Shown here: positions 18,950 through 63,558 of the stretch, one piece after another
Position numbering within the stretch: position 1 is the stretch's first letter
How the letters are laid out: every line of letters starts with the position of its first letter
Origin: Salminus brasiliensis
Lineage: Eukaryota > Chordata > Actinopteri > Characiformes > Bryconidae
Reading direction: 5' to 3'
DNA: 64,000 nt
Assembly (NCBI RefSeq): GCF_030463535.1
Contig: NC_132901.1
Coordinates: forward strand, 7,756,959-7,820,958
Notes under the pieces: generated by a model
The model's input: the letters and a program-made list of their open reading frames with translations, nothing else
Databases searched by the model: none
Told to the model about the DNA's origin: nothing
Program-made: the position numbers and the translations under genes

Positions 18950-20930
18950 TGTAATAAACGCTGCGCACGTTAGAATGGCGTGATGTAGTGTGACTTTGTT
19001 GTATACGAGACCGAGGCGCACATGGCGACAGCCATCAGAGGGCTGACCGAGGTATTTGTCGTGTTAAGACATATGTTAGCTACTTTTAATGTTCATACAT
19101 GTGAAACGTCATTTTTTTTTTAGTCCTTACACTACTGGACCCTGGTTAGCTCCGGTGTGTCGTTGTTAGCACGATAACGTTTGCTAACTTGCCAAAAATG
19201 AAGTAGATAATGATATCCGATAACTCGATTTTGCCGAGAGCCTAAAGTTGTACACCCAGTCACAGCAAATTGATGTAGAACTGCCGTTGCTGGATCTATG
19301 TGTGGAGTTGTACATAGCTTGGAGCCAGCTTAGCGATTTGCAGCGTGGCTAACGCGGCCAGCATAAATAGTAAAGCGCAAATATGAGCCTAATTATGAGG
19401 GGTCATTATTTGTTGACCACAGTGCAGTACCACATGCAGAGTTGTAGCATAAAAGTACGCAATACAGCCGTGATTGGTGGCTGTTGAGTGATTTGAGTTA
19501 ACTTGCTTTTTCAGGTCCACACATGAGCTAACAAAGCGATTAGCATGCTAGCTAACTCGGATGGTACAAACAATAACATACGCCAGCGAGTGTAAATACC
19601 TGTCAGATAAATACACACTCGCTCGAGTCAGTCAAGTTTTATTATGAAACGGTGTATATAGCAACATTTATACGTTTACTGTCGTGGTTGAAACCGAGAA
19701 GCCACCTTGGAGAGTAGCATGATGGCTAGGTGTCTTAAAATTAATCACAGAAATAACGATATTACGGACACGTGCGTAGTTCTCTATATTGTTATTTGGA
19801 GCAAGTGAGGGAGAAACAGTCGTGCTTAAACCCGGCTACCAACAGCGTATCTTCTGGTTTTCAGAGCTGGGCAGCCTGTGTAGCTTGCTAGCTAGTGTTT
19901 TGTTTACAAAAGATTATTTTCGTTAGCTAGTTGCCGAAACGACATCGGTCAACCGAGAGAAAAAACAAGAAACAAAAAAAAAACAATTCCCAAGCAGCTC
20001 ACTACTCCCTGTGGAGTGCACGATGTCACGAAAAAACGGCTTCTATACTCACCTAGTGCACTAGAGAGTACTGGAGTGCGGTTTAGGATTGTACAACACA
20101 CAATCAATTACTACAATAATAACAATAATAATGTCAAGTGTGTAATCTTTCTAAGAAAACGGTGCATAAATGTTTATTTACAAAGGTCACATGGCCCCTA
20201 TGCACTTCAAATTTCGTGAAAAGGAGTCAGAGGCTGTGTATGAGCCTACTTTGAGTCACTGTAAGTTCATCTTAAGCCTAGGTCACTGAATTTTATTAAT
20301 TCATTCAGCTATTTATTTATTTATTTTAAGATTTCGCCATAAGACCAAGCTATTTCAGAAGTGATTTTAGCTCCTAATTATAGTTTAGCTTACTTTTTAA
20401 TTATAAGGTCAAGCAGGTCTGGAGCTAGGCTGTAGGTTTCGAAGCTAAATCATGATGAGTTAAAGTATTCAGAGTGAAGGTTATGCATGATCCAAAGTGT
20501 GCTGCGTTATTATTATTACTATTATTAGTTTATTCCTTTTTAGAACACTTGGAGTCTGGATGCCATTGTGTGGCCAGACTGTGAAACTACAAGCAGTAGA
20601 AGGAAGACATGCTGCAAATGCATTGAGAAGTGATGCTATTATTGCTTGACTTTGACTATTGATTGTCCCCCCCCCCCATGTACACCACATGTTAATGAAA
20701 TCCACATGAAATCCAAAAAGAGCACTTTTTTGAATTTTGAACATGAGTACATCCAGAGGGTACGGAATTAATATTTAATTCCGAATTAATATTAATATAC
20801 TGTATTTTGTATGGCTACCCACTCAGTGGCTTTATGTGCAATCTTTGAGTGGTCTAGGCATGTTTGAGACGCTGTACAGCAAAACAAGCGTTCTGCTCAC
20901 GTACAGAGTATGAGGCGGAGCTAATGTACT
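18950..20930. other. Single-copy-per-unit spacer upstream of H4, unit 2
   Basis: Counterpart of 2860-4850, essentially identical; no gene recognised. Confidence 0.6.
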
Positions 20931-20931
20931 G

Positions 20932-21362
<431 letters not shown>

Positions 21363-21392
21363 ACGCTCGGCCTGAACAGCTCTAAACACAAC

Positions 21393-21408
21393 GGCTCTTT
21401 TAAGAGCC
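21393..21408 (+). terminator. Histone mRNA 3' stem-loop, H4 unit 2
   Basis: Unchanged 16-nt stem-loop with the same flanks as unit 1 H4. Confidence 0.97.
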
Positions 21409-21952
21409 ACCCACAAATCCAGCAAAAGAGCCTGTTTCTATTCTTAGTTTGTTATCAAATAAGGCAGTCGATCTCCCGCATACTCTGTATTAAAATGTAA
21501 TATACCGGAAGAATACATGTGTATATATACATATAATAGATATGTCTGTATATATGTATTGTTTTCCATTTTGCCCCCCGTGTGCGTTGGTTAAATCCGA
21601 ACTATATGTCTTAATAAATCCTGATAGAAAAAAAATCGCCGTCAACGCCGCTGTGCCGAAAAACAGAAAAACAGCCCTGTAGATTAAGAATGCGCGGGAA
21701 GAATGTTGCAAGAATCATATTTGTTTGTTTGTTTCAATATAGTCAATGATGGTGGTTATGAATCTCCCGGTTAAGAAGCTAATTTTATATATATGAAGAA
21801 TACATATAGTTTTCAATTTCCCCCGTATGCGTTGATTAAACGTTTGAATAAATTCAGAATATCGCCGTCAACGCCGATGTGGCGAAAAATAATGTGCCGT
21901 CTGCACGGTGGGTAAAAATGCGCGGGTAGGCGAACAAAGAGAATGCTGCTCA

Positions 21953-22029
21953 GGGGAGGGGGAAGGGAAGAGGAGAATAGGGAGGGGAGGGGAGGGAGGG
22001 GAGGGGAGGGGAATGAAGGGTGGGGGGTT
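21953..22029 (+). repeat. G-rich purine tract upstream of H2B, unit 2
   Basis: Shorter allele of the same tract. Confidence 0.85.
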
Positions 22030-22057
22030 GGCAAGAAGAGAGCGGACAATTTGTTGT

Positions 22058-22554
<497 letters not shown>

Positions 22555-22584
22555 ATAGTGATAGCGGCATAATCCAAACCCAAC

Positions 22585-22600
22585 GGCTCTTTTAAGAGCC
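22585..22600 (+). terminator. Histone mRNA 3' stem-loop, H2B unit 2
   Basis: Unchanged stem-loop; one substitution lies upstream in the leader. Confidence 0.97.
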
Positions 22601-22658
22601 ACCCACGGTTTCTTCCAAAGAGCAGTTTTATTCAAGAACCAAGTAAGTTATAATACTA

Positions 22659-22691
<33 letters not shown>

Positions 22692-23039
22692 TGAGAGTGC
22701 CTTTATTGTTACATACTTATTGATGTATGTAAATCAACTTACTTAATTGTTTGTTTGCATTTAATTGGTATAGTGTACTAGGATTCAGGGACAGAGCAGC
22801 AAACTAAAATACTGTGCCATACTAACTGTATGGAGTGGGCTTGTAGTGCTAAGTGGGATAAATGAAGCTGCACATCACCTGTGAAAGACCAGTCCAGAGG
22901 AGATCAGCCTTACAGGTGGGGAAGAGTGAGGCAGGAAACCATACTAGGGTTGACTTAAACCCTAGAATTACACACCCGATCTTTGTAATGAAAGCTGTCT
23001 AGTATATATAACCAGGCATACGGTTAGGCTCCCCACAAG

Positions 23040-24645
23040 CCTTTTTTGTTGGGTCACAGAAGGGTGAAGTTAGTTAAAGCCTTAGGTTTATGGTGGGATT
23101 TGAGTGAGCAAAAGTAGGTTCAGAGCAAGGCTTTTGATGTAGAGGGTCGAAGTAAGGCAAAAGGACGAGGGTAGAATAATTAAATTGAGGTAGCGTAAGT
23201 AAAAAAGTATGGTGGTGAAAGTGTGTTTAGTGCAGATGTGATCTAGGAAGAGTGAGTAACAGTGGCTTTGTAAGGAGGCCTCAGGTTTATGATGAAGGTG
23301 GATTGAGTTAAAGTGACCGTGAGCTTAGGCCTTTGCCTTAGGATACAAAGGAAGGTTCAGTGAAAGTCAGTTTCAACATAAGCCATCAGCCTGATGTTTT
23401 GGATACACATGGATACACATGGCCTCGGCCTACTGAGGACTGCACATCTAAGTAGAATGGTCATGACTGCATGGAATGGGTTAAATGAAAGCAAAAGTTT
23501 GGTGTGTTGCTTATTGAGATAGAGGGAAGGATGGGGTTAATTTGTTTTAGGACAAGAATGAAATTGCAGTTGTTTCATGTGAGGGGTTCGAATGAGGATG
23601 GAGTGATTTTGTATAATGGTTGGATGAAGGATGGGGTTATTTCATTTTAGGGTTGGAGAGAGAAGGTGGTGGGGTTTGTATTAGAGTATGAATGAAAATG
23701 GGTTATTTTATTTTGGGGTTAGAAGGCGGATGGGGTTATTTTGTTTCATTGTTAGAATGATGTTAAGGTTATGTTGTACTAGGTTAAGAGGGAGGACAGA
23801 GTTATTTTGTATTAGGACTATTTGGTTGGGTCACAAAAAGATGAATTTGGTTGAAGCCTTAGGTTAATGTTGAGATTCGAGCGAGCAAGAATAGGTTCAG
23901 AGCTAGACTTTTGATGTAGAGGGTTGAAGCAAGGCAAAAGGACAAGGGTAGAGTAAATAAAATAGTATGGCGGTCAAAGGCCTCAGGTTTATGATGAAGG
24001 TGGATTGAGTTAAAGTGACCGTGAGCTTAGGCCTTTGCCTTAGGATACAAAGGAAGATTCAGTAAAAGTAAAACAGTTTCAACATAAGCCATCAGCCTGA
24101 TGTTTTGGATACACATGCCCTTGGCCTACTGAGGAATGCACATCTAAGTAGAATGGTCATGACTGCATGGAATGGGTTAAATGAAAGCAAAAGTTTGGTG
24201 TGTTGCTTATTGAGATAGAGGGAGGGATGGGGTTAATTTGTTTTAGGACAAGAATGAGATTGCAGTTGTTTCATGTGAGGGGTTCGAATGAGGATGGAGT
24301 TATTTTGTATAATGGTTGGAAGAAGGATGGGGTTATTTCATTTAGGGTTGGAGAGAGAAAATGGTTATTTTCTATTAGGGTTAAAATGAGAATGGGGTTT
24401 TAGGGTTTAAATGAGCTTGGGTTTATTTTGTATTGGGGATAGAGTGAAGGTGCAGTTATTTTGTATTAGGGTTTGAAAAAGGGCATGATTATTTCATGTG
24501 ATTTTTAGAATAAGGTTTGTCTTTTTTTTAAGATTTTGTTTTTGCGTTTTAGGGTGGGGGGGTGGATGCAGTTATTTTGTGTTAGGGTTAGTATGAGATT
24601 TTTGGCTATGGTATATTGGGTGTGTTGAGGTGATGAAGGAAATGA
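23040..24645 (+). repeat. G/T-rich 0.7-kb repeats in H2B-H1 spacer, unit 2
   Basis: Same arrangement as unit 1, copy starts at 23498 and 24194. Confidence 0.85.
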
Positions 24646-40353: not shown

Positions 40354-40864
<511 letters not shown>

Positions 40865-41350: not shown

Positions 41351-41918
<568 letters not shown>

Positions 41919-41953
41919 ACAGAGCGCTTCGACGTTTACCTGAAATACCCAAC

Positions 41954-41969
41954 GGCTCTTTTAAGAGCC
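41954..41969 (+). terminator. Histone mRNA 3' stem-loop, H3 unit 3
   Basis: Unchanged stem-loop; the subtype A to B switch occurs within about 100 bp downstream or in the gene's 3' half. Confidence 0.97.
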
Positions 41970-44414
41970 ACCTACCCGTGTCCGCGCCGAAACAGCAAAT
42001 GTCCGCCTCACCTCGGTGTTGCGTTTATGTAATGTAAGGCTATTATGACGCGCGCGCGCTTCTAAGTTCCATAGGGCTGCGCGAGCAAAACCAGCCGTAA
42101 GACAGTGGTTGTAAAGTTTAGCAAAAAAAACAACAACTAATATATATGTATATATATATTATAACGTTTTGTACAACATTTCACATCAAAATCGCCATAT
42201 TTAACATGTGTTTTAATACATATTAATACGTTTCTTTAAATACCTATCAATATGATTATACATATTTAATAGTTTGGAAACAGTTCATTCACCCCAGCAA
42301 AAAGTTGAAGCCACTGCTACTTCAGTAGAACACTACACTTTACCCTATGTAGTGTTTAGGCCGGTTTTGGCCTATTACAAACGGCATTTGACATGGATGG
42401 AGCGTGGATCCCACCGCGTGGTGAAACTATACAACTGCAAGCACAGTTTCAGAGAGCAATGTATGTGTATATTTATATAATGAGAGCTTAATTTTGGGTA
42501 CCTACGTTTCATACATATGCAAAATGAGTTTGATTCCATAGAGAGTAAGCGAGACCAGCTGTGGGGCCGCAGTAAAGGAGTTAAGTGTATATTCCGGAGA
42601 GGACCACCGTTGTTGTGGGAACGCAGACATATGTCATGGATGGAGCGTGGATGCCATCGTGTGGTCAAACTAGGCAAATGCAAACGTTAACTACGTAGAT
42701 TTATTCGTGTATGTGTGTGAATGTAACAGCTTTTTTCATTTGATAGATGGTTGTGAACTCCAGTACGTCTACTAAATCATTTGTATTGCGGTGTTATTTT
42801 GGTTAGTGTTTTTTAAAGTACATTTTAAAAAATGTTTCTATTGAAGCATACTTCAGTTCAGGGCATTTTAGTAGCCAGCATGGTTACCAGTTCTCATGCT
42901 GCCAGGCAATGAAATGGAAACTTAATTTAGGGTAATTTTATACACATTAAATATGATTGTTAACTGCACCAACAAATCTAAAAAGTAATTACGTGTCTTA
43001 CGTGATGATTTTCGTTTGGGCTTGGGTTTCATTTCAACAATATGCTAACGATAACATACTCCAGACTCTATAATCTCCTTCCACAACTAGATAAAATGTC
43101 TTGTTTTGAAGAACGCTTGATAGAAGTCTTTAATAAAGGCACTTTATTAGCCATCATGACAACCAAACAGCATGCAGTTATGTAAAAAGCCACCAATTTA
43201 CTCACTGCTAGAAGCCATTGAGACAAACTATAGAGTAGTGCACTTCTATGTAGGACCTTTATTTCCTTTTCTTTAGAGCCCTTAAACTCTGTGTATTAGC
43301 TTATATTGAGGTTACCATAATAATCATAAATCAGTAAAAAACACCGCTCATCTGCTATCAAGACCTGACCGAGGAGCTGGAGGCCAGTGGAGCAAAGCTA
43401 AAATATGGAAAAGCATACGCACCCTCAAATTGGTGCAAAAAAAAATAAATAATAATTTTAATCATTCAAGGCATAGGTAAGTAACAAATGAATACAAAAG
43501 TGCTAACAAAAGTGAATGAAAAGCCAGCCGTACTCACTTGTGAATTCGCTTTTTTGATTTTGCTTCTTTAAACGTCTCTGTGGACCAAAAAAAAAAGATT
43601 AATTGTTTTACATTTTAACCACACGATGGCATCCACGCTCCATTTACGTACTATGACCACAGACTTAAAGCTTAGCCCTGAAACTCCATCAGAAGCCTAA
43701 AAGACTTGACTAGAGAAGTGCACTTCTGTGTAGTGTATACAGTGTAAGGGATTTAGGAAGTGCCCTATTGCAAACGTCACCGTTGTTTTGGTATCGTGGA
43801 TATATGTCATGGATGGAGCGTGGATGCCATCGTGTGGTCAAACTCGCAAATGCAAACGCTAAAAACATAGATGTATACGTGTATGTGTGTGAATGTTACA
43901 GCTTTTACATATGACAGATGGTTGTGAACTCCAGTAAGTCTACTAAGATCTACCAAGGAACATTTGGGCATTTTAGTAGCCAGCATGACAACCAGTTGTC
44001 ATGCTACCAGGCAATGAAAACTTAATTTAGGGCACTGCAATTTTTATACACATTAAATATGATTGTTAACTGCACCAATACATCTAAAAAGTCATTACAT
44101 GTCTTGCGGGATGATTTTTGTTTGGGTTTTAACAATATGCTAATGATAAAGTAGGACAGAAATTTTTTTTACTCCAGACTGTATTACCTCCTTCCACAAC
44201 TCGATCAAATGGCTTTAGATAAAGAATCCTTGATAGAAGCATTCTTTATTTAAGGCACTTTTTTATCAGTTAGGTAAAAAGCCAACAATTCGCTCACTAC
44301 TATAAGCCATTGAGACAAACTGTAGAGTAGTGCAATTCTATGAATGACGTTTTTCCCCTCCCCCTTTAGAGCCCTTAAATTCTATGCTGTATGGTTATGT
44401 GTATGTATGTATGC

Positions 44415-44560
44415 ATCAGCTTATATTGAGGTTAACATAATAATCATAAATCAATAAAGAACACCGCTCATCTGCTATCAAGACCTGACTAAGGAGCTAG
44501 AGGCCAGTGGAGCAAAGCTACAATTACGAAAAGCATACGCACCATCAGTGCAAAAAAATC
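44415..44560 (+). repeat. Inverted repeat arm 1, spacer 3-4
   Basis: 146 bp spanning the X/Y module border (ATCAGCTTATATTG ... GCAAAAAAATC); its reverse complement lies at 45289-45434 with one mismatch. Confidence 0.92.
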
Positions 44561-45288
44561 ATTTTAACCTGCCAGGTTTAGGTCAAAGACTTTCTTCAAG
44601 GCATAGGTAAGTAACAAATGAATACAAAAGTGCTAACAAAAGTGTATCAAAAGCCAGCCGTACTCACTTGTGAATTAGCTTTTTTGTGCTTCTCAAATTG
44701 AACTCTTTCTCTTCTTTCTGATTTTGCTTCTTTAAATGTCTCTGTGGACCAAGAAAAAAAAAACTAAAAAAAAAGATGAATTGTTTTATATTTTGCAGAT
44801 TTACATTTTGACCACCAGATGGCATCCACGCTCCATTCACGTACTACGACAACAGACTTAAAGCTTAGCCCTGAAACTCCATCAGAATCCTAAGGGGTAG
44901 GTCTAGCCAAACTGCTTCCCCTCACCCTGACTTCATCATGAGCTCTACACTTACTTTGCTTACCACAATGTCTTTCCATATTTCTTTATCATCCACTAAC
45001 TGCAACATATGATAAAAGCAACATTACTTAAAGCAACATTAACTCCCTCTGTGTTTATCTAATCTAGCATGACTTTTATTAGAAGATGTAAAGCGAGCCT
45101 GAGAAATCCAAGGGGTAAACATGTAGTTTTAGTTGGCCTCATTAGGAGCTTTTCCCTTGTATGCAATAATATACCATTTATTCGATTTGTGTTTGTTCTT
45201 TCTTTCTTTAAATGTCTCTGTGGACACTATATCTTTAACTTGTAGTGTATTAGATTAACGACTACAATTCCCATGATGCCTAACTAAA

Positions 45289-45434
45289 GATTTTTTTGCA
45301 CCGATGGTGCGTATGCTTTTCGTAATTGTAGCTTTGCTCCACTGGCCTCTAGCTCCTTAGTCAGGTCTTGATAGCAGATGAGCGGTGTTCTTTATTGATT
45401 TATGATTATTATGTTAACCTCAATATAAGCTGAT
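45289..45434 (-). repeat. Inverted repeat arm 2 (templated insertion), spacer 3-4
   Basis: Reverse complement of 44415-44560. It replaces about 12 bp (GGTCTCTGACCA) that subtype A has between AACTAAAGAT and AAACCTTGCC. Confidence 0.92.
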
Positions 45435-46339
45435 AAAACCTTGCCAAATAAAATTATTTTTGCACAGATTTAATTGTGTGGGTATGAGACATGTTAGTAT
45501 TATTCCTACATTCACTTCTCATTGGTGAAGATCTTCTCTAATGGCCAATGTCAGTGTTAACACTTTACTGTACATCCTATACATTTGCACTCCTGGACAC
45601 TACTAACACTTTATTATTATTACTTAATAATACAGTGTTATTATTAAATTTTTATGTATCGTCATCTGTCCACTTCATTTCTTATTTTTCATAACTGCAC
45701 TGTCCTTCATCTGCAGTTAGTTTCAAATGCATTTTCACATGTATTCTATTTATCTGTCTATCTATCTATCTTGCAGTGTGGGTTCTAACTAGACAAAGGA
45801 CTCCAAAAGTCATGTTTGTGTTTTTAAACCACAGTATTGACTTTGTCCTCATGTAACTCATGTATAGTGTAACTGGGTATCTCAGTATCTTCACCTGGAT
45901 TTATTGATCCAAAACTGTAGTTTAGTGATGTCAAGGTTCAAATGTTTAAAGTCATGTCATGTTGAATGTTGTGAGGGAATACGTCTGAAAATATATGGAA
46001 CCTGGCCTGGCAGATACATATTCTGACCACCAGATGGCATCACTACTCCATTCACGTTCTGCAACTACATAGTCTTAGGGCCTAGCCCTGAAACTCCATC
46101 AGAAGCCTAAGAGGTAGGTCCAGCCGAACTGCTACCACTCATCCTGACTTCATCATGAGCTTTACACTTACTTTGCTCACCACAATTTATTTCCTTCCTT
46201 TCTCTTCCACTAACTGCTAACCAATATGACTTTAGAAGAAGATTTATTAGAAGATGTATAGTGAAAACCTGAGGAATCCAAATGGTGTGGGTTTAGTTTA
46301 AGTTTTATTTTATGTGCAGAAATATGTCAGTGGTGGTGG

Positions 46340-46386
<47 letters not shown>

Positions 46387-46393
46387 TGTGTGT

Positions 46394-46480
<87 letters not shown>
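46340..46480. repeat. (GT)n-(GA)n compound microsatellite, spacer 3-4
   Basis: Long GT run interrupted by two GGGT units, then GA. Confidence 0.95.
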
Positions 46481-46484
<4 letters not shown>

Positions 46485-46699
46485 ATGCATACTTATTCAA
46501 TCTGACAGAAAATACAAACCCTGTACTGGTTTGTGTTTGAGCAATATGTGTTGACAAAGAAAAAAAGAACAAATTACTGGTTGAATCTATAAAACACTAT
46601 GCTTCCTTTAAGTGTGTCTATGTCAATGTGTCAATGACACAATGTGTCTTTATCCTGTAGTGTCAAGATCAAGGACTACAATTCCCATGATGCCTAACT

Positions 46700-47716
46700 A
46701 CAAGTTCAGCCTATTGACACACGTGCCATGTATTAGGACTAATCACGTGTTGTTTTAGAACGTTTTCGAAAAGTATAGATGACGTACAGTGTTTTATTGA
46801 TTCAACCATTCATGTGATCCGGCTCTTTAATTCTTGAATTTGATTTATTGTTGTACTGGGTTGTTGGCGTTGTATTTTCCAAACGTTGCAAACCCTTTGT
46901 ATGTGGATTTACTTGTTCAATATGTTGTCATGGAGCCTGTCTCTCTCTCTCTATCTCTGTCTATCTCTCTATGTATACATATCTATCTACCTACCTACCT
47001 TCCTACCTACCACCCTCCCTCTCTTCATCTAATGATGAAATCCGATAACTGCACGTCCAGTCACAGTAAAAAGTAAACCGTGTGCCATGGTGTACAGTAG
47101 TGGGCTGATCTCAGTGTGTGCTTGTTTTATGCTTGCAAGGTCGTAACCCTAGTACTAAATAGCCATTTATGTCATTTATTCAGGCATTCAGGTGCATTGA
47201 GGGAGGACACGTACTCTTGTCGTGTGTGTGTGTGAAATAATCGCTACGCACGTTAGAATGGCGTGATGTAGTGTGACTTCGTTGTATACGAGACCGAGGC
47301 GCACATGGCGACAGCCATCAGAGGGGAGTGGACGGCTGACCGAGGTATTTGTCGTGTTAAGACCTATGTTAACTACTTTTAATGTTCATACATGTGAAAC
47401 GTCGTCTTTACATGACGACATGTGAGTCATTACACTTTGCGTTGCTTTGTGGAATAGGCGTGAGCTGGAGACTGGACCTGATCAGCTCCGTTGTGTCGCT
47501 GTTGGCACGATAACGTTTGCTAACTTGCCAAAAATGAAGTGGATACTGAAATCCGATAAGTCGATTTTGCGGAGAGCCTAAAGTTGTACACCCAGTCACA
47601 GCAAATCGACGTAGAACTGCCGTTGCTGGATCTATGTGTGGAGTTGTACATAGCTTGGAGCCAGCTTAACGATTAGCAGCGTGGCTAACTCGGCCAGCAT
47701 AAACAGTAAAGCACAA
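46700..47716. other. Subtype B spacer truncated by the H4-H2B deletion
   Basis: Matches 60680-61698 of the next spacer, then stops at AAAGCACAA and switches to the G/T-rich array. No gene recognised. Confidence 0.7.
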
Positions 47717-50700
47717 TAATAATTTGGTGTGTTGCTTATTGAGATAGAGGGAGGGATGGGGTTAATTTGTTTTAGTACAAGAATGAAATTGGAGTTGTTT
47801 CATGTGAGGGGTTCGAATGAGGATGGGGAGTGATTTTGTATAATGGTTGGAGGAAGGATGGTGTTATTTCATTTTAGGGTTGGAGAGAGAAGGTCGTGGG
47901 GTTTGTATTAGAGTATGAATGAAAATGGGTTATTTTATTTTGGGGTAGACGGCGGATGGGGTTATTTGGTTTCATGGTTAGAATGATGTTAAGGTTATGT
48001 TGTACTAGGTTAAGAGGGAGGACAGAGTTATTTTGTATTAGGACTATTTGGTTTGGTTCACTAAAAGATGAATTTGGTTGAAGCCTTAGGTTAATGGTGA
48101 GATTCGAGCGAGCAAGAATAGGTTCAGAGCTAGACTTTTGATGTAGAGGGTCGGAGCAAGGCAAAAGGACGAGGGTAGAGTAAGTAAAATAGTATGGCGG
48201 TCAAAGACCTCAGGTTTATGATGAAGGTGGATTGAGTTAAAGTGACGGTGAGCTTAAGCCTTTGCCTTAGGATACAAAGGAAGGTTCAGTAAAAGTGAGT
48301 TTCAACATTAGCCATCAGCCTGATGATTTGGATACACATGGCCTCGGCCTACTGAGGAATGCACATCTAAGTAGAATGGTCATGACTGCATGGAATGGGT
48401 TAAATGAAAGTAAAAGTTTAAAAATAATAATTTGGTGTGTTGCTTATTGAGATAGAGGGAGGGATGGGGTTAATTTGTTTTAGTACAAGAATGAGATTTG
48501 AGTTGTTTCATGTGAGGGGTTCGAATGAGGATGGAGTGATTTTGTATAATGGTTGGAGGAAGGATGGGGTTATTTCATTTTAGGGTTTGTGAGAGAAGGT
48601 GGTGGGGTTTGTATTAGAGTATGAATGGAAATGGGTTATTTTATTTTGGGGTTAGACGGCGGATGGGGTTATTTGTTTTCATGGTTAGAATGATCTTAAG
48701 GTTATGTTGTACTAGGTTAAGAGGGAGGACAGAGTTATTTTGTATTAGGACTATTTGGTTTGGTTCACTAAAAGATGAATTTGGTTGAAGTCTTAGGTTA
48801 ATGGTGAGATTCGAGCGAGCAAGAATAGGTTCATAGATATTTTTTTGATGTAGAGGGTCGGAGCAATGCAAAAGGACGAGGGTAGAGTAAGTAAAATAGT
48901 ATGGCGGTCAAAGGCCTCAGTTTTATGATGAAGGTGGATTGAGTTAAAGTGACGGTGAGCTTAAGCCTTTGCCTTAGGATACAAAGGAAGGTTCAGTAAA
49001 AGTGAGTTTCAACATTAGCCATCAGCCTCATGATTTGGATACACATGGCCTCGGCCTACTGAGGAATGCACATCTAAGTAGAATGGTCATGACTGCATGG
49101 AATGGGTTAAATGAAAGTAAAAGTTTAAAAATAATAATTTGGTGTGTTGCTTATTGAGATAGAGGTAGGGATGGGGTTAATTTGTTTTAGTACAAGAATG
49201 AAATTGGAGTTGTTTCATGTGAGAGGTTCGAATGAGGATGGGGAGTGATTTTGTATAATGGTTGGAGGAAGGATGGTGTTATTTCATTTTAGGGTTGGAG
49301 AGAGAAGGTGGTGGGGTTTGTATTAGAGTATGAATGAAAATGGGTTATTTTATTTTGGGGTTAGACGGCGGATGGGGTTATTTGGTTTCATGGTTAGAAT
49401 GATGTTAAGGTTATGTTGTACTAGGTTAAGAGGGAGGACAGAGTTATTTTGTATTAGGACTATTTGGTTTGGTTCACTAAAAGATGAATTTGGTTGAAGC
49501 CTTAGGTTAATGGTGAGATTCGAGCGAGCAAGAATAGGTTCAGAGCTAGACTTTTGATGTAGAGGGTCGGAGCAAGGCAAAAAGACGAGGGTAGAGTAAG
49601 TAAATTTAGGTAGCGTAAGTAAAAAAGTATGGCGGTGAAAGTGTTTAGTGCAGATGTGATCTAGGAAGAGTGAGTAACAGCAGCTTTGTAAACAAGGCCT
49701 CAGGTTTATGATGGAGGTGGATTGTGTTAAAGTGACTGTGAGCTTAGGCCTTTGCCTTAGGAAGGTTCAGAAAAAGTGAATTTCAACATTGGCCATCAGC
49801 CTGATGATTTGGATACACATGGCCTCGGCCTACTGAGGAATGCAGATCTAAGTAGAATGGTCATGACTGCATGGAATGGGTTAAATGAAAGTAAAAGTTT
49901 AAAAATAATAATTTGGTGTGTTGCTTATTGAGATAGAGGTAGGGATGGGGTTAATTTGTTTTAGTACAAGAATGAAATTGGAGTTGTTTCATGTGAGAGG
50001 TTCGAATGAGGATGGGGAGTGATTTTGTATAATGGTTGGAGGAAGGATGGTGTTATTTCATTTTAGGGTTGGAGAGAGAAGGTCGTGGGGTTTGTATTAG
50101 AGTATGAATGAAAATGGGTTATTTTATTTTGGGGTTAGACGGCGGATGGGGTTATTTGGTTTCATGGTTAGAATGATGTTAAGGTTATGTTGTACTAGGT
50201 TAAGAGGGAGGACAGAGTTATTTTGTATTAGGACTATTTGGTTTGGTTCACTAAAAGATGAATTTGGTTGAAGCCTTAGGTTAATGGTGAGATTCGAGCG
50301 AGCAAGAATAGGTTCAGAGCTAGACTTTTGATGTAGAGGGTCGGAGCAAGGCAAAAGGACGAGGGTAGAGTAAGTAAAATAGTATGGCGGTCAAAGACCT
50401 CAGGTTTATGATGAAGGTGGATTGAGTTAAAGTGACGGTGAGCTTAAGCCTTTGCCTTAGGATACAAAGGAAGGTTCAGTAAAAGTGAGTTTCAACATTA
50501 GCCATCAGCCTGATGATTTGGATACACATGGCCTCGGCATACTGAGGAATGCACATCTAAGTAGAATGGTCATGACTGCATGGAATGGGTTAAATGAAAG
50601 TAAAAGTTTAAAAATAATAATTTGGTGTGTTGCTTATTGAGATAGAGGGAGGGATGGGGTTAATTTGTTTTAGTACAAGAATGAGATTTGAGTTGTTTCA

Positions 50701-52475
50701 TGTGAGGGGTTCGAATGAGGATGGAGTTATTTTGTATAATGGTTGGAGGAAGGATGGGGTTATTTCATTTTAGGGTTTGTGAGAGAAGGTGGTGGGGTTT
50801 GTATTAGAGTATGAATGGAAATGGGTTATTTTATTTTGGGGTTAGACGGCGGATGGGGTTATTTGTTTTCATGGTTAGAATGATGTTAAGGTTATGTTGT
50901 AATAGGTTAAGAGGGAGGACAGAGTTATTTTGTATTAGGACTATTTGGTTTGGTTCACTAAAAGATGAATTTGGTTGAAGTCTTAGGTTAATGGTGAGAT
51001 TCGAGCGAGCAAGAATAGATTCATAGATATTTTTTTGATGTAGAGGGTCGGAGCAATGCAAAAGGACGAGGGTAGAATAAGTCAAATAGTATGGCGGTCA
51101 AAGGCCTCAGTTTTATGATGAAGGTGGATTGAGTTAAAGTGACGGTGAGCTTAAGCCTTTGCCTTAGGATACAAAGGAAGGTTCAGTAAAAGTGAGTTTC
51201 AACATTAGCCATCAGCCTCATGATTTGGATACACATGGCCTCGGCCTACTGAGGAATGCACATCTAAGTAGAATGGTCATGACTGCATGGAATGGGTTAA
51301 ATGAAAGTAAAAGTTTAAAAATAATAATTTGGTGTGTTGCTTATTGAGATAGAGGGAGGGATGGGGTTAATTTGTTTTAGGACAAGAATGAGATTGGAGT
51401 TGTTTCATGTGAGGGGTTCGAATGAGGATGGGGAGTGATTTTGTATAATGGTTGGAGGAAGGATGGTGTTATTTCATTTTAGGGTTGGAGAGAGAAGGTG
51501 GTGGGGTTTGTATTAGAGTATGAATGAAAATGGGTTATTTTATTTTGGGGTTAGACGGCGGATGGGGTTATTTGGTTTCATGGTTAGAATGATGTTAAGG
51601 TTATGTTGTACTAGGTTAAGAGGGAGGACAGAGTTATTTTGTATTAGGACTATTTGGTTTGGTTCACTAAAAGATGAATTTGGTTGAAGCCTTAGGTTAA
51701 TGGTGAGATTCGAGCGAGCAAGAATAGGTTCAGAGCTAGACTTATGATGTAGAGGGTCGGAGCAAGGCAAAAGGACGAGGGTAGAGTAAGTAAAATAGTA
51801 TGGCGGTCAAAGGCCTCAGTTTTATGATGAAGGTGGATTGAGTTAAAGTGACGGTGAGTTTAAGCCTTTGCCTTAGGATACAAAGGAAGGTTCAGTAAAA
51901 GTAAGTTTCAACATTAGCCATCAGCCTGATGATTTGGATACACATGGCCTCGGCCTACTGAGGAATGCACATCTAAGTAGAATGGTCATGACTGCATGGA
52001 ATGGGTTAAATGAAAGTAAAAGTTTAAAAATAATAATTTGGTGTGTTGCTTATTGAGATAGAGGGAGGGATGGGGTTAATTTGTTTTAGTACAAGAATGA
52101 GATTTGATTTGTTTCATGTGAGGGGTTCGAATGAGGATGGAGTGATTTTGTATAATGGTTGGAGGAAGGATGGGGTTATTTTATTTAGGGTTGGAGAGAG
52201 AAAATGGTTATTTTCTATTAGGGTTAAAATGAAAAATGGGGTTTTAGGGTTTAAATGAGCTTGGGTTTATTTTGTATTGGGGTTAGAGTGAAGGTGCAGT
52301 TATTTTGTATTAGGCTTGAAAAAGGGCATGATAGTTTTATGTTATGTTTAGAATAAGTTTTGTCTTTTTTTTTTTGTTATTTTGTTTTTTGTGTTTTAGG
52401 GTTGGGGGGGTGTATGCAGTTATTTTGTGTTAGGGTTAGTATGAGATTTTTGGCTATGGTATATTGGGTGTGTTA
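47717..52475 (+). repeat. Expanded ~708-bp tandem array upstream of H1, unit 4
   Basis: Seven copies starting at 47723, 48431, 49138, 49912, 50621, 51328 and 52037; intervals 708, 707, 774, 709, 707 and 709. Copy 3 is longer because it retains a ~66-bp stretch (TTTAGGTAGCGTAAGTAAAAA ..., about 49603-49690) also found in the first partial copy of units 1-3. Copy 7 runs into the H1 upstream region. The array replaces H4, H2B and the start of the H2B-H1 spacer. Confidence 0.93.
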
Positions 52476-52935
52476 CGAGTGCGTATTAGGGGACCTATGG
52501 AGAGCCGTTCCGAGTGTGGAAGCGCCGGTGACAAAGACGCATCGACGGTGGAAGTCATACTGCGCACACACGGCAACACTGTGCTTTACACACTCCTCAA
52601 GGTCGCCTTGCACGACGAGCAAAACAACGCACCCACGTCTCGGATGCCCAGCACGCTCTCGACGAGGCTCTCCTCCAACGCACCGGATAACACTCGCCCA
52701 GTTCGTGGCACCTTTTGTCGCCGTTTTCCACCGATTAGCACGCCAAATGCGCCGCCGCCCGTTCGGCACGCCGGTAGCGTGGCACGCTTCGGTGAGCGCC
52801 GTATTAAACGCGGCGTCGTTACGCTGCCCTTCCCGTCTTCTCAACACACGGTGGAGCCTCTCGGAGACGAAAGAGCATTTCTACGCTCGCCAAGTTGAGC
52901 TTTCACCCATATTTCGCTCGACAAACGCCGAGAGA

Positions 52936-53020
52936 AAACACAAGTGCGAGACTGTCGCTGCCACACGGCTGTGCGGCATCGAGCGAGTTGAGTCTACAAC
53001 GTTCTCATGTGGCTTTTAAG
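52936..53020 (+). promoter_or_regulatory. H1 promoter, unit 4
   Basis: Intact H1 box AAACACA at 52936-52942 and CTTTTAAG at 53013-53020. The flanking CpG-rich region is kept although H4 and H2B are lost upstream. Confidence 0.72.
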
Positions 53021-53103
53021 GGCCGGCCCCCTCGCTGCAGCGGGAGGTTCTACAGAACGCTGCAGCAGTTTGTGCTCACTCGCGCTCTCAGCAAAGCAGA
53101 ACA

Positions 53104-53727
53104 ATGGCAGAAGTCGCTCCAGCCCCAGCCGCCTCGGCGCCCGCCAAGGCCCCCAAGAAGAAGGCCGCCGCCCGCCCCAAGAAAGCCGGCCCCAGCGTGG
53201 GCGAGCTCATCGTCAAGGCCGTCTCGGCTTCCAAGGAGAGGAGCGGCGTGTCTCTCGCCGCCCTGAAGAAAGCCCTGGCTGCCGGCGGCTACGACGTCGA
53301 GAAGAACAACTCACGCGTTAAGCTCGCCGTCAAGAGCCTCGTCACCAAGGGCACTCTGGTGCAGACCAAAGGCACCGGCGTGTCGGGCTCTTTCAAGCTT
53401 AACAAGAAGCAGACCGAGGCAAAGAAGAAGCCGGCCGCCAAGAAACCGGCACCTAAAGCTAAGAAGCCGGCCGCCAAGAAACCAGCCGCGGCCAAGAAGC
53501 CCAAGAAGGTAGCAGCCAAGAAACCCACTGCGGCTAAGAAATCCCCCAAGAAGGCCAAGAAGCCCGTCGCGGCCGCTAAGAAGGCAGCGAAGAGCCCCAA
53601 GAAGGCCAAGAAGCCGGCGGCAACCAAAAAGGCGATCAAGAGCCCAAAGAAAGCCAAAACGGTCAAGCCTAAAGCAGCTAAGCCCAAGGCGGCGAAGGCG
53701 AAAAAGGCTGCCCCTAAGAAGAAGTAA
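53104..53727 (+). CDS. H1: Linker histone H1, unit 4 (most diverged copy)
   Basis: 207-residue H1 with the same domain plan. Relative to the unit 2/3 protein it carries A93V (end of the globular domain), A104T, P174T and T178I, and it keeps Glu105. The three SPKK motifs are intact. It is the first gene of the incomplete unit 4, with the expanded 708-bp array where H4 and H2B would be expected. The 3' leader also differs (TAAACAGTAACG). The open frame, promoter and stem-loop argue that it is functional. Confidence 0.98.
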
Positions 53728-53770
53728 ACAGTAACGCCGTTTACCTTCATGTCTTGTTTCTCTATTCAAC

Positions 53771-53786
53771 GGCTCTTTTAAGAGCC
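53771..53786 (+). terminator. Histone mRNA 3' stem-loop, H1 unit 4
   Basis: Unchanged stem-loop although both flanks carry subtype B substitutions (AAAAAAACAGC downstream). Confidence 0.97.
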
Positions 53787-54004
53787 ACCCACAGTTTCAT
53801 AAAAAAACAGCTTTTTTCCCCCCTTGTTACTGCATAATGAATTGATTGTTAAAAAAAAAAAAACACTCAACAACACAAAAATAGCTCTCATTACTTTCCC
53901 CACACAATAATTATATATGATCAATATATATATTTTTTTTTGGTTTGGTCATACGTGTTACATTTGAGCGGGAAAGGGAAAGAAAACGCGGGGCACGAGT
54001 GGGG

Positions 54005-54216
54005 CCCTTGAGCAAGGCCCTTTACCCTCTCTGCTCCCCGGGCGCTGGAGTTGGCTGCCCACCGCTCTGGGTGTGTGTGTGTACTCACTGCCCCTAACAC
54101 ATGTGTGTGTGTGAGTGTGTGTTCACTACCAGATGGGTTAAATGCGGAGGACACATTTCGCTGTACAGTCCACACTGTACAGTGACGAATACGTGCACCT
54201 TTATCCTTTTATCCTT
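54005..54216 (+). mobile_element. SINE-like insertion in the unit 4 H1-H2A spacer
   Basis: 212 bp present in unit 4 only; units 1-3 run directly from GCACGAGTGGGG to AAATGTTTC, apart from a GT dinucleotide. It begins CCCTTGAGCAAGGCCC, contains GATGGGTTAAATGCGGAGG and ends in ATCCTTTTATCCTT. These words resemble the central and tail parts of teleost tRNA-derived SINEs. No A/B box Pol III promoter is evident, so it would be 5'-truncated. No clear target duplication. Confidence 0.6.
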
Positions 54217-54357: not shown

Positions 54358-54868
<511 letters not shown>

Positions 54869-55323: not shown

Positions 55324-55893
<570 letters not shown>

Positions 55894-55928
55894 ACAGAGC
55901 GCTTCGACGTTTACCTGAAATACCCAAC

Positions 55929-55944
55929 GGCTCTTTTAAGAGCC
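55929..55944 (+). terminator. Histone mRNA 3' stem-loop, H3 unit 4
   Basis: Unchanged stem-loop with ACCTACCC flank. Confidence 0.97.
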
Positions 55945-58389
55945 ACCTACCCGTGTCCGCGCCGAAACAGCAAATGTCCGCCTCACCTCGGTGTTGCGTT
56001 TATATAATGTAAGGCTATTATGACGCGCGCGCGCTTCTAAGTTCCATAGGGCTGCGCGAGCAAAACCAGCCGTAAGACAGTGGTTGTAAAGTTTAGCAAA
56101 AAAAACAACAACTAATATATATGTATATATATATTATAACGTTTTGTACAACATTTCACATCAAAATCGCCATATTTAACATGTGTTTTAATACATATTA
56201 ATACGTTTCTTTAAATACCTATCAATATGATTATACATATTTAATAGTTTGGAAACAGTTCATTCACCCCAGCAAAAAGTTGAAGCCACTGCTACTTCAG
56301 TAGAACACTACACTTTACACTATGTAGTGTTTAGGCCGGTTTTGGCCTATTACAAACGGCATTTGACATGGATGGAGCGTGGATCCCACCGCGTGGTGCA
56401 ACTATACAACTGCAAGCACAGTTTCAGAGAGCAATGTATGTGTATATTTATAAAATGAGAGCTTGATTTTGGGTACCTACGTTTCATACATATGCAAAAT
56501 GAGTTTGATTCCATAGAGAGTAAGCGAGACCAGCTGTGGGGCCGCAGTAAAGGAGTTAAGTGTATATTCCGGAGAGGACCACCGTTGTTGTGGGAACGCA
56601 GACATATGTCATGGATGGAGCGTGGATGCCATCGTGTGGTCAAACTAGGCAAATGCAAACGTTAACTACGTAGATTTATTCGTGTATGTGTGTGAATGTA
56701 ACAGCTTTTTTCATTTGATAGATGGTTGTGAACTCCAGTACGTCTATTAAATCATTTGTATTGCGGTGTTATTTTGGTTAGTGTTTTTTAAAGTACATTT
56801 TAAAAAATGTTTCTATTGAAGCATACTTCAGTTCAGGGCATTTTAGTAGCCAGCATGGTTACCAGTTCTCATGCTGCCAGGCAATGAAATGGAAACTTAA
56901 TTTAGGGTAATTTTATACACATTAAATATGATTGTTAACTGCACCAACAAATCTAAAAAGTAATTACGTGTCTTACGTGATGATTTTCGTTTGGGCTTGG
57001 GTTTCATTTCAACAATATGCTAACGATAACATACTCCAGACTGTATAATCTCCTTCCACAACTAGATAAAATGTCTTGTTTTGAAGAACGCTTGATAGAA
57101 GTCTTTAATAAAGGCACTTTATTAGCCATCATGACAACCAAACAGCATGCAGTTATGTAAAAAGCCACCAATTTACTCACTGCTAGAAGCCATTGAGACA
57201 AACTATAGAGTAGTGCACTTCTATGTAGGACCTTTATTTCCTTTTCTTTAGAGCCCTTAAACTCTGTGTATTAGCTTATATTGAGGTTACCATAATAATC
57301 ATAAATCAGTAAAAAACACCGCTCATCTGCTATCAAGACCTGACCGAGGAGCTGGAGGCCAGTGGAGCAAAGCTAAAATATGGAAAAGCATACGCACCCT
57401 CAAATTGGTGCAAAAAAAAATAAATAATAATTTTAATCATTCAAGGCATAGGTAAGTAACAAATGAATACAAAAGTGCTAACAAAAGTGAATGAAAAGCC
57501 AGCCGTACTCACTTGTGAATTCGCTTTTTTGATTTTGCTTCTTTAAACGTCTCTGTGGACCAAAAAAAAAAGATTAATTGTTTTACATTTTAACCACACG
57601 ATGGCATCCACGCTCCATTTACGTACTATGACCACAGACTTAAAGCTTAGCCCTGAAACTCCATCAGAAGCCTAAAAGACTTGACTAGAGAAGTGCACTT
57701 CTGTGTAGTGTATACAGTGTAAGGGATTTAGGAAGTGCCCTATTGCAAACGTCACCGTTGTTTTGGTATCGTGGATATATGTCATGGATGGAGCGTGGAT
57801 GCCATCGTGTGGTCAAACTCGCAAATGCAAACGCTAAAAACATAGATGTATACGTGTATGTGTGTGAATGTTACAGCTTTTACATATGACAGATGGTTGT
57901 GAACTCCAGTAAGTCTACTAAGATCTACCAAGGAACATTTGGGCATTTTAGTAGCCAGCATGACAACCAGTTGTCATGCTACCAGGCAATGAAAACTTAA
58001 TTTAGGGCACTGCAATTTTTATACACATTAAATATGATTGTTAACTGCACCAATACATCTAAAAAGTCATTACATGTCTTGCGGGATGATTTTTGTTTGG
58101 GTTTTAACAATATGCTAATGATAAAGTAGGACAGAAATTTTTTTTACTCCAGACTGTATTACCTCCTTCCACAACTCGATCAAATGGCTTTAGATAAAGA
58201 ATCCTTGATAGAAGCATTCTTTATTTAAGGCACTTTTTTATCAGTTAGGTAAAAAGCCAACAATTCGCTCACTACTATAAGCCATTGAGACAAACTGTAG
58301 AGTAGTGCAATTCTATGAATGACGTTTTTCCCCTCCCCCTTTAGAGCCCTTAAATTCTATGCTGTATGGTTATGTGTATGTATGTATGC

Positions 58390-58535
58390 ATCAGCTTATA
58401 TTGAGGTTAACATAATAATCATAAATCAATAAAGAACACCGCTCATCTGCTATCAAGACCTGACTAAGGAGCTAGAGGCCAGTGGAGCAAAGCTACAATT
58501 ACGAAAAGCATACGCACCATCAGTGCAAAAAAATC
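58390..58535 (+). repeat. Inverted repeat arm 1, spacer 4-5
   Basis: Counterpart of 44415-44560. Confidence 0.92.
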
Positions 58536-59263
58536 ATTTTAACCTGCCAGGTTTAGGTCAAAGACTTTCTTCAAGGCATAGGTAAGTAACAAATGAATAC
58601 AAAAGTGCTAACAAAAGTGTATCAAAAGCCAGCCGTACTCACTTGTGAATTAGCTTTTTTGTGCTTCTCAAATTGAACTCTTTCTCTTCTTTCTGATTTT
58701 GCTTCTTTAAATGTCTCTGTGGACCAAGAAAAAAAAAACTAAAAAAAAAGATGAATTGTTTTATATTTTGCAGATTTACATTTTGACCACCAGATGGCAT
58801 CCACGCTCCATTCACGTACTACGACAACAGACTTAAAGCTTAGCCCTGAAACTCCATCAGAATCCTAAGGGGTAGGTCTAGCCAAACTGCTTCCCCTCAC
58901 CCTGACTTCATCATGAGCTCTACACTTACTTTGCTTACCACAATGTCTTTCCATATTTCTTTATCATCCACTAACTGCAACATATGATAAAAGCAACATT
59001 ACTTAAAGCAACATTAACTCCCTCTGTGTTTATCTAATCTAGCATGACTTTTATTAGAAGATGTAAAGCGAGCCTGAGAAATCCAAGGGGTAAACATGTA
59101 GTTTTAGTTGGCCTCATTAGGAGCTTTTCCCTTGTATGCAATAATATACCATTTATTCGATTTGTGTTTGTTCTTTCTTTCTTTAAATGTCTCTGTGGAC
59201 ACTATATCTTTAACTTGTAGTGTATTAGATTAACGACTACAATTCCCATGATGCCTAACTAAA

Positions 59264-59409
59264 GATTTTTTTGCACCGATGGTGCGTATGCTTTTCGTAA
59301 TTGTAGCTTTGCTCCACTGGCCTCTAGCTCCTTAGTCAGGTCTTGATAGCAGATGAGCGGTGTTCTTTATTGATTTATGATTATTATGTTAACCTCAATA
59401 TAAGCTGAT
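59264..59409 (-). repeat. Inverted repeat arm 2, spacer 4-5
   Basis: Counterpart of 45289-45434; shared by both subtype B spacers, so the event predates their duplication. Confidence 0.92.
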
Positions 59410-60323
59410 AAAACCTTGCCAAATAAAATTATTTTTGCACAGATTTAATTGTGTGGGTATGAGACATGTTAGTATTATTCCTACATTCACTTCTCATTGG
59501 TGAAGATCTTCTCTAATGGCCAATGTCAGTGTTAACACTTTACTGTACATCCTATACATTTGCACTCCTGGACACTACTAACACTTTATTATTATTACTT
59601 AATAATACAGTGTTATTATTAAATTTTTATGTATCGTCATCTGTCCACTTCATTTCTTATTTTTCATAACTGCACTGTCCTTCATCTGCAGTTAGTTTCA
59701 AATGCATTTTCACATGTATTCTATTTATCTGTCTATCTATCTATCTTGCAGTGTGGGTTCTAACTAGACAAAGGACTCCAAAAGTCATGTTTGTGTTTTT
59801 AAACCACAGTATTGACTTTGTCCTCATGTAACTCATGTATAGTGTAACTGGGTATCTCAGTATCTTCACCTGGATTTATTGATCCAAAACTGTAGTTTAG
59901 TGATGTCAAGGTTCAAATGTTTAAAGTCATGTCATGTTGAATGTTGTGAGGGAATACGTCTGAAAATATATGGAACCTGGCCTGGCAGATACATATTCTG
60001 ACCACCAGATGGCATCACTACTCCATTCACGTTCTGCAACTACATAGTCTTAGGGCCTAGCCCTGAAACTCCATCAGAAGCCTAAGAGGTAGGTCCAGCC
60101 GAACTGCTACCACTCATCCTGACTTCATCATGAGCTTTACACTTACTTTGCTCACCACAATTTATTTCCTTCCTTTCTCTTCCACTAACTGCTAACCAAT
60201 ATGACTTTAGAAGAAGATTTATTAGAAGATGTATAGTGAAAACCTGAGGAATCCAAATGGTGTGGGTTTAGTTTAAGTTGGCCTTGTTTTATTTTATGTG
60301 CAGAAATATGTCAGTGGTGGTGG

Positions 60324-60461
<138 letters not shown>

Positions 60462-61199
60462 TTGATGCATACTTATTCAATCTGACAGAAAATACAAACC
60501 CTGTACTGGTTTGTGTTTGAGCAATATGTGTTGACAAAGAAAAAAAGAACAAATTACTGGTTGAATCTATAAAACACTATGCTTCCTTTAAGTGTGTCTA
60601 TGTCAATGTGTCAATGACACAATGTGTCTTTATCCTGTAGTGTCAAGATCAAGGACTACAATTCCCATGATGCCTAACTACAAGTTCAGCCTATTGACAC
60701 ACGTGCCATGTATTAGGACTAATCACGTGTTGTTTTAGAACGTTTTCGAAAAGTATAGATGACGTACAGTGTTTTATTGATTCAACCATTCATGTGATCC
60801 GGCTCTTTAATTCTTGAATTTGATTTATTGTTGTACTGGGTTGTTGGCGTTGTATTTTCTAAACGTTGCAAACCCTTTGTATGTGGATTTACTTGTTCAA
60901 TATGTTGTCATGGAGCCTGTCTCTCTCTCTCTATCTCTGTCTATCTCTCTATGTATACATATCTATCTACCTACCTACCTTCCTACCTACCACCCTCCCT
61001 CTCTTCATCTAATGATGAAATCCGATAACTGCACGTCCAGTCACAGTAAAAAGTAAACCGTGTGCCATGGTGTACAGTAGTGGGCTGATCTCAGTGTGTG
61101 CTTGTTTTATGCTTGCAAGGTCGTAACCCTAGTACTAAATAGCCATTTATGTCATTTATTCAGGCATTCAGGTGCATTGAGGGAGGACACGTACTCTTG

Positions 61200-62551
61200 T
61201 CGTGTGTGTGTGTGTGAAATAATCGCTACGCACGTTAGAATGGCGTGATGTAGTGTGACTTTGTTGTATACGAGACCGAGGCGCACATGGCGACAGCCAT
61301 CAGAGGGGAGTGGACGGCTGACCGAGGTATTTGTCGTGTTAAGACCTATGTTAACTACTTTTAATGTTCATACATGTGAAACGTCGTCTTTACATGACGA
61401 CATGTGAGTCATTACACTTTGCGTTGCTTTGTGGAATAGGCGTGAGCTGGAGACTGGACCTGGTCAGCTCCGTTGTGTCGCTGTTGGCACGATAACGTTT
61501 GCTAACTTGCCAAAAATGAAGTGGATACTGAAATCCGATAAGTCGATTTTGCGGAGAGCCTAAAGTTGTACACCCAGTCACAGCAAATCGACGTAGAACT
61601 GCCGTTGCTGGATCTATGTGTGGAGTTGTACATAGCTTGGAGCCAGCTTAGCGATTAGCAGCGTGGCTAACTCGGCCAGCATAAACAGTAAAGCACAAAT
61701 ATGAGCCTAATTATGAGGGGTCATTATTTATTGACCACAGTGCAGTACCACATGCGGAGTTGTAGCATAAAAGTACGCAATACAGCCGTGATTTGTGGCT
61801 GTTGAGTGATTTGAGTTAACTTGCTTTTTCAGGTCCACACATGAGCTAACATAGCGATTAGCATGCTAGCTAACTCGGATGGTACAAACAATAGCATTAC
61901 GCCAGCGAGTGTAAATACCTGTCAGATAAATACACACTCGCTCGAGTCAGTCAGGTTTTATTATGAAACCGTGTATATAGCTAGCAACATTTTATACGTT
62001 TACTGCCGTGGTTGAAATCGAGAAGCCACCTCGGAGAGTAGCATGATGGCTAGGTGTCTAAAAATTAATCACAAAAATAACGATATTACGGACACGTGCG
62101 TAGTTCTCTATATTGTTATTTGGAGCAAGTGAGGGAGAAACAGTCGTGCTTAAACCCGGCTACCAGCAGCGTATCTTCTGGTTTTCAGAGCTGGGCGGCC
62201 TGTGTAGCTTGCTAGCTAGTGTTTTGTTTACAAAAGATTATTTTCGTTATTAGCTAGTTGCCGAAACGGCATCGGTCAACCGAAAAAACGAACAAACAAA
62301 AAAACAATGCAATTTCGCTCGTTGGCCAATAGTTAAACAGTAAAAAAGCTCAGAAAAAGCTATGACATTAGAACCGGAGTTGCACTGTCCAATTCCCAAG
62401 CAGCTCACTACTCCCTATGGAGTGCACGGTGTCACGAAAAAACGCTGTGCACTAGGGAGTAGTGGAGTGCGGTTTAGGATCGCCCCAGGTGTACGAAGGA
62501 AGACTTCATGCATGGAGCATGGGGTGTCATCCTGTGGTAAAACACGGAAAG

Positions 62552-62626
<75 letters not shown>

Positions 62627-63120
62627 TTGGCGTTATTATTGTAGTAATTGATTTTTAGAAAACAGTGCATAAATGTTTATTTACAAAGGCCACATGGCCC
62701 CTATCCACTTCTTACAGTGACTCAAAGTAGGCTCATACACAGCCTCACTAAACAGTTCATCTTATGCCTAGGTCACTGAATTGTATGAATTTATTCAGTT
62801 ATTTATTTATTTAAGATTTCGCCATAAGACCAATCTATTTCAGAAATGATTTTAGCTCTTAATTGCAGTTTAGGTTACTTCGTCATTATATGGTCAAGCA
62901 GGTCTGGATCTAGGCTGTAGGTTTCAAAGCTAAATCATGTTGAGTTAAAGTATTCACAGTGAAGGTTATGCATGATCCAAAGTGTGCTGCGTTATTTTGA
63001 ACATGAGTACATCCAGAGAGAACGGAATTCTGGTTGACTGTATTTTGTATGGCTACCCACTCAGTGGCTATACAGCAAAACAAGCGTTCTGCACACGTAC
63101 AGAGTATGAGGCGGAGCTGA
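61200..63120. other. Subtype B spacer upstream of H4, unit 5
   Basis: Diverged counterpart of 2860-4850. It contains an extra ~75-bp segment before the foldback (about 62300-62390) and a long AT microsatellite at 62553-62623 where subtype A has a short AAT tract. No gene recognised. Confidence 0.6.
62553..62623. repeat. (AT)n microsatellite, unit 5 upstream
   Basis: About 35 AT dinucleotides; absent from the corresponding subtype A position. Confidence 0.95.
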
Positions 63121-63127
63121 TGTACTG

Positions 63128-63558
<431 letters not shown>

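Follow-up and report, generated by a model that had tools for sequence, protein, structure and literature searches.

A histone unit of H1, H2A and H3 only and the recurrence of partial units in the tandem array of Salminus brasiliensis

The tandem histone gene array of Salminus brasiliensis contains a unit, the fourth in the stretch analysed here, that encodes H1, H2A and H3 and neither H4 nor H2B, and ahead of which the intergenic spacer runs directly into a 708-bp repeat array at position 47716. The two joined sides have two bases in common, and junctions of this kind recur along the array. The join may stem from a partial tandem duplication whose left copy was later overwritten, a reading that we favour slightly over deletion of the H4 and H2B genes. 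The stretch analysed, referred to as the window, comprises 64,000 nucleotides of contig NC_132901.1 (7,756,959 to 7,820,958 of the forward strand).

Organization of the histone array

The window is part of a large tandem array of replication-dependent histone genes of the fish type. Complete units of the array display the order H4-H2B-H1-H2A-H3 with every gene on the + strand, which is the order given for the rainbow trout unit, likewise on one strand (Connor et al. 1984, as cited in PMC6136364). The window contains four H4, three H2B, four H1, four H2A and four H3 genes, the same ratio as reported in the first-pass annotation. Because unit 5 has two H2B genes at 64429 and 66781, just past the window end at 64000, the 4:3 ratio of H4 to H2B is partly an edge effect, and the genes truly absent are therefore the H4 and H2B of unit 4 only.

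Five proteins were scanned against Pfam and each fell within the expected histone family, with H4 scoring below the curated cut-off of the core histone model. The proteins are also similar to their trout counterparts. The histone 3' stem-loop was demonstrated for 16 of the 19 window genes, comprising 15 with a match to Rfam RF00032 above the cut-off and the H3 of unit 3, which is followed at 41949-41995 by a full stem-loop with a score of 28.9 bits, the cut-off being 34. The downstream part of this stem-loop fits the model poorly, and none of the H3 genes in the window passes the Rfam cut-off. The suggestion that H3 stem-loops are absent was rejected, as the one H3 gene checked (unit 3) has one below that cut-off. 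The genes of unit 4 and the first gene of unit 5 are as follows.

53104..53727, + strand: H1 of unit 4, intact, 207 aa, Pfam PF00538, 3' stem-loop at 53766-53810
54482..54868, + strand: H2A of unit 4, intact, stem-loop at 54898-54943
55483..55893, + strand: H3 of unit 4, intact
63247..63558, + strand: H4 of unit 5, indicating that B spacers can precede H4

The H1 of unit 4 (53104-53727) and that of unit 1 share 97.6% identity, and the H1-H3 region of unit 4 is the most distant among the subtype B units compared, with 15-18 substitutions vs 0-14 among the others. The spacer ahead of unit 2 carries a 2-kb insert (window 16017-18033) with a reverse transcriptase frame (RVT_1) on the - strand, and this insert is not found in the corresponding sites at ~1940 and ~32094. 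The contig also carries a second H1 block (11323100-12012335), ~3 Mb further downstream, which accounts for 21 of the 40 H1 matches scored out of 96 candidates.

The survey of units covered the window and 246 kb downstream, giving 310 contiguous kb without any N, in which the window numbering is continued (joined frame). Eighteen units are seen to their end, namely nine intact quintets (units 1, 2, 3, 6, 8, 11, 13, 14 and 16), seven units lacking whole genes and two with a damaged gene; the fish-type order on one strand is thus present in the nine complete ones. Units 4 and 12 consist of H1-H2A-H3, units 7, 9 and 10 of H4-H2B, unit 5 of H4-H2B-H2B-H3 and unit 15 of H4-H3. In unit 17, the H2B is without its first codons and upstream region, ~0.4 kb being deleted at 261951 of the joined frame (contig position 8018909), and in unit 18 a 4.9-kb insert with a terminal A run breaks the H4 close to its start. 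This insert spans 277087-282011 of the joined frame (contig 8034045-8038969). Two units with only H4 and H2B, at 147.6 and 159.4 kb of the joined frame, are near-identical. Complete units are ~14-32 kb long, and the 708-bp array that separates H2B from H1 ranges from 1.4 kb to 19.6 kb across units, the longest being that of unit 8 (117317-136912, joined frame). The 310 kb hold 17 H4, 17 H2B, 13 H1, 13 H2A and 15 H3 genes, when those that are damaged or belong to the truncated unit 19 are counted too. Gene counts over this longer stretch, a check proposed in the first-pass annotation for the whole array, thus reverse the deficit seen within it, as H4 and H2B are in excess.

The junction at 47716

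The join and the sequences on both of its sides comprise the following features.

42049..47716, + strand: subtype B spacer upstream of the join, counterpart of 56024-61698
47715..47716, + strand: junction, the AA at which the end of the B spacer and the 708-bp array overlap
47715..52314, + strand: unit 4 array of 708-bp repeats, 4.6 kb long vs 1.4 kb in units 1-3
47715..49604, + strand: first copy of a 2.19-kb array duplication, the second copy (49904-51794) being 99.2% identical
49605..49694 (approx.), + strand: ~90-bp linker of unit 4, mid-array, with its equivalent at 23185-23275 in unit 2
55894..61698, + strand: subtype B spacer after unit 4, base 61698 corresponding to 47716
61699..63246, + strand: B spacer remainder that runs on to H4, missing from the join
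19381..23497, + strand: unit 2 stretch of 4,117 bp without a counterpart at the junction (spacer end, H4, H2B, array head and linker) if the array was duplicated as described below

Alignment confirmed the proposed switch at 47716 from a spacer like that of unit 5 to the 708-bp repeat, as the spacer at 40207-47716 aligns to 54216-61698 and the alignment ends at 47716. The left parent matches through 47716 and the right parent, the 708-bp array, from 47715, and the AA microhomology described earlier is accordingly found base by base as a 2-bp overlap of the end-joining type. The unit is H1-H2A-H3 as annotated, and neither H4 nor H2B lies in the interval from the unit 3 H3 to the unit 4 H1. No traces of H4 or H2B were found in 47.6-53.1 kb, all protein matches lying elsewhere, and the best DNA match to the absent segment in this interval is only 25 bp (E 0.001). 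A 21-mer spanning the join has a single occurrence in the 310 kb of array. In the 1.07-Gb genome, a 451-bp query over the join gave one full-length match among 40 scored sites out of 769 candidates, the other 39 of these 40 covering the array half only.

The left break at 47716 corresponds to 19380 in unit 2, in agreement with the annotated limit of a missing segment of ~4.1 kb. On the right, 47723 aligns to 23498 and also to further repeat copies, and since the repeats are paralogous, the right limit of the absent stretch depends on the repeat copy chosen. In units 1-3, the array opens with a partial copy followed by the ~90-bp linker near its head. In unit 4, the linker is found mid-array because 47715-49604 is a near-copy of 49904-51794, the two differing by 15 substitutions and one gap over 1.89 kb. 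The simplest reading is a 2.19-kb tandem duplication within the array, with the first linker lost just left of the junction, and it follows from this reading that the 4,117 bp at 19381-23497 of unit 2 are absent. The right limit of the annotated segment holds only if the array was duplicated in this way.

Subtypes A and B and the hybrid unit 3

Unit 3 is an A/B hybrid. Up to the end of H3 it is ~99.9% identical to unit 2 (14 mismatches in ~9.9 kb) and A-like at six of seven diagnostic sites through 41735, and from 42049 it is B-like at nearly all sites.

41735..42049, + strand: A-to-B switch interval of unit 3, with the H3 3' end and stem-loop

Between the B spacer that follows unit 3 and the one that follows unit 4, no mismatches occur over 3.0 kb (43187-46186), with ~0.5% difference on either side, and because of this mismatch-free block within diverged flanks, conversion or exchange has probably acted on the two spacers since. 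Site 58522 was considered as a derived change common to spacers 3, 4 and 5 and was rejected, as subtype A has the same base, which is probably ancestral.

Duplication footprints at other junctions

A partial tandem duplication is expected to leave near-identical copies on either side of the join, ending at the join; the test is one-sided and reveals gains only, as deletions leave no such mark. At 190306, 142.6 kb downstream of the 47716 join, a spacer-to-array join is again associated with an H1-H2A-H3 unit, and the copies at 177611-190305 and 190307-202977 differ by two mismatches and three gaps in 12.7 kb. This join, of the same type as 47716, is best read from its flanking copies as a 12.7-kb tandem duplication. 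Similar footprints are seen at 107100 (14.9-kb copies with no mismatches and four gaps, the left end lying inside an insert) and at 239318 (8.6-kb copies, one mismatch and three gaps), and at 66661 the H2B is copied over 2.35 kb with ten mismatches, a duplication by topology. These four joins thus read as gains, but whole-unit duplication plus deletion could mimic such footprints, at two events each. The spacer of unit 6 contains a 1.6-kb insert at 91515-93130 (joined frame), and the ~0.9-kb 3' part of it is carried by the 14.9-kb duplication to 107101-108025.

Exclusive common sites tie spacers 6 and 7, 11 and 12, and 14 and 15, and no substitutions separate the H4 and H2B regions of units 7 and 8, the H4 region of units 15 and 16, or the H1-H3 region of units 11 and 12. 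No clear duplication footprint was found at 74436 or for the first origin of the join at 152732. The joins at 152732 and 164553 are identical and were probably copied via exchange between spacers, since spacer 9 shares 5' sites with spacer 10 and 3' sites with spacer 8.

Inspected base by base, the six distinct joins show two common bases (47716 and 107100), none (239318), or one (190306), two (66661) and three (152732, the same as 164553) unmatched bases. Such overlaps and unmatched bases are the mark of end joining or template switching, as opposed to homologous exchange. Homologous whole-unit exchange seems to be active as well, as seen in the near-identical units 1-3 and in spacer 9.

The same bases bear on the reality of the 47716 join in the animal, as the region is highly repetitive and its near-identical 8-15 kb copies are where assemblers fail. 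However, the joined sides have only 2 bp in common, from which an overlap-based collapse would hardly produce the join, and the varied small overlaps and unmatched bases at the six joins resemble repair products. Spacers 3 and 4 also each carry private substitutions, and the 310 kb are free of N, making an assembly artefact very improbable and a collapse, as raised in the first-pass annotation, unlikely.

On raw counts, the spacers flanking junctions differ at 9, 10, 3, 6, 12, 0 and 1 positions vs 3, 236, 19, 22, 14, 16, 19 and 23 for other neighbours (one-sided Mann-Whitney p=0.0019, with pairs that are not independent). With gap-near columns masked, the counts are 7, 6, 0, 6, 11, 0 and 1 vs 6, 13, 14, 14, 17 and 15 for other subtype B neighbours. 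The proposal that every junction pair represents closest neighbours was not retained, being clear on raw counts and partly lost after masking, and it offers no proof for 47716. Breakage hotspots within the repeat array were also rejected, as 6 of 14 breakpoints (seven distinct junctions) fall in the array vs its 27% share of 260 kb (binomial p=0.16). A variant in which six of seven junctions have exactly one end in the array (p=0.018) was set aside as a test picked post hoc.

Gain or loss at 47716

The first-pass annotation concluded that unit 4 had lost its genes, as the B spacer of unit 5 leads to H4. This does not follow, because a duplication of 13,982 bp comprising array, H1, H2A, H3 and spacer yields the same join with no gene lost, and a duplication join looks identical, as seen at 190306. 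A deletion would join two points of a single unit without homology, and the join with its 2-bp overlap agrees with this, but equally with a duplication.

In the reading preferred here, the array turns over by whole-unit exchange plus end-joining rearrangements within units, and at 47716 such a rearrangement has brought the end of a B spacer against the 708-bp array, giving the H1-H2A-H3 unit. By a slight margin, the most likely source of the join would be a tandem duplication of part of a unit, array-H1-H2A-H3-spacer (47717-61698), and the left copy would later have been overwritten, from the array to the H3 end, through exchange involving a unit of subtype A. We lean slightly towards this origin because 190306, a join of the same type, bears the footprint of a duplication. 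Against it, the left H1-H2A-H3 is of subtype A and the full footprint is therefore missing, the only stretches alike across the join being ~42.05-47.716 kb and 56.02-61.698 kb, with the 5' part of the left copy belonging to subtype A. Moreover, the four readable gains do not prove the unreadable joins to be gains as well, and losses do occur, as seen for the ~0.4 kb of unit 17. Spacer 3 is closest to spacer 4 on raw counts (nine differences), while after masking it differs by seven from each of spacers 4, 5, 6 and 7 (4,786 unmasked columns), and no sites common to spacers 3 and 4 alone were found.

Alternatively, unit 4 may have lost H4 and H2B in one deletion of ~4.1 kb, corresponding to 19381-23497 of unit 2, with the spacer joined to the array via microhomology-mediated or non-homologous end joining. 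Deletion would involve one small event compatible with the 2-bp overlap, a small deletion has a precedent in unit 17, and the equal distance of spacer 3 from spacers 4, 5, 6 and 7 is expected of any ordinary B spacer. Yet the same-type join at 190306 and three further joins read as duplications, and deletion also requires a prior whole-unit duplication of B plus the A/B switch, leaving it a plausible but somewhat doubtful origin. Partial tandem duplication followed by overwriting of the left copy is thus slightly preferred.

Comparison with other histone arrays

The kind of variant unit described here is already known from Drosophila. According to the accessible part of Bongartz and Schloissnig (PMC6380962), the D. 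melanogaster histone complex of 107 copies includes two with the same long deletion, two with a doubled H2A and two with insertions, apart from nine units of the known 4.8-kb type and degenerate ones past the 3' end. The array of S. brasiliensis similarly has a doubled gene and a variant common to two units. However, units with such indels amount to ~6 of 107 in that account, whereas whole genes are missing from 7 of 18 units here, and the D. melanogaster unit is ~5 kb long as opposed to ~14-32 kb for complete units here. Unlike the D. melanogaster unit as described there, those of this array have a long 708-bp repeat array separating H2B and H1.

In three D. melanogaster strains, landmark units bearing variants or transposable elements move and multiply within the array and unit types cluster, and the part of this source available reports a partial unit (~1.5 kb) only at the array edge (PMC12400953), in contrast to the partial units found here. 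The accessible text on a snail rDNA-histone array contains nothing on partial units (PMC8382920), and no report of partial units in fish histone arrays was found in the literature covered, judged by titles and the opening lines of abstracts, outside of which most subscription journals lie.

Implications for histone array evolution

The H1-H2A-H3 unit is ordinary array turnover, and most likely it has no effect on the animal, as one gene set would have been gained (or removed) among many. By itself, one partial unit means little in a tandem array of this size; it is the share of incomplete units that stands out, and with nine of 18 units incomplete or damaged, the array is not a uniform run of quintets. 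Caution is warranted, as an incomplete unit need not mean loss, several of them apparently having arisen by partial-unit copying. Histone dosage balance in such arrays becomes testable via gene and transcript counts. It is tentatively proposed, at just short of an even chance, that the array grows largely by end-joined duplication of part-units (H4-H2B, H1-H2A-H3 and H3-spacer-H4 blocks), which would give unequal gene copy numbers and leave half of the units read not intact, with concerted evolution spreading some partial units such as those at 147.6 and 159.4 kb. If this is true, the stoichiometry of histone genes would be kept by expression and not by unit structure.
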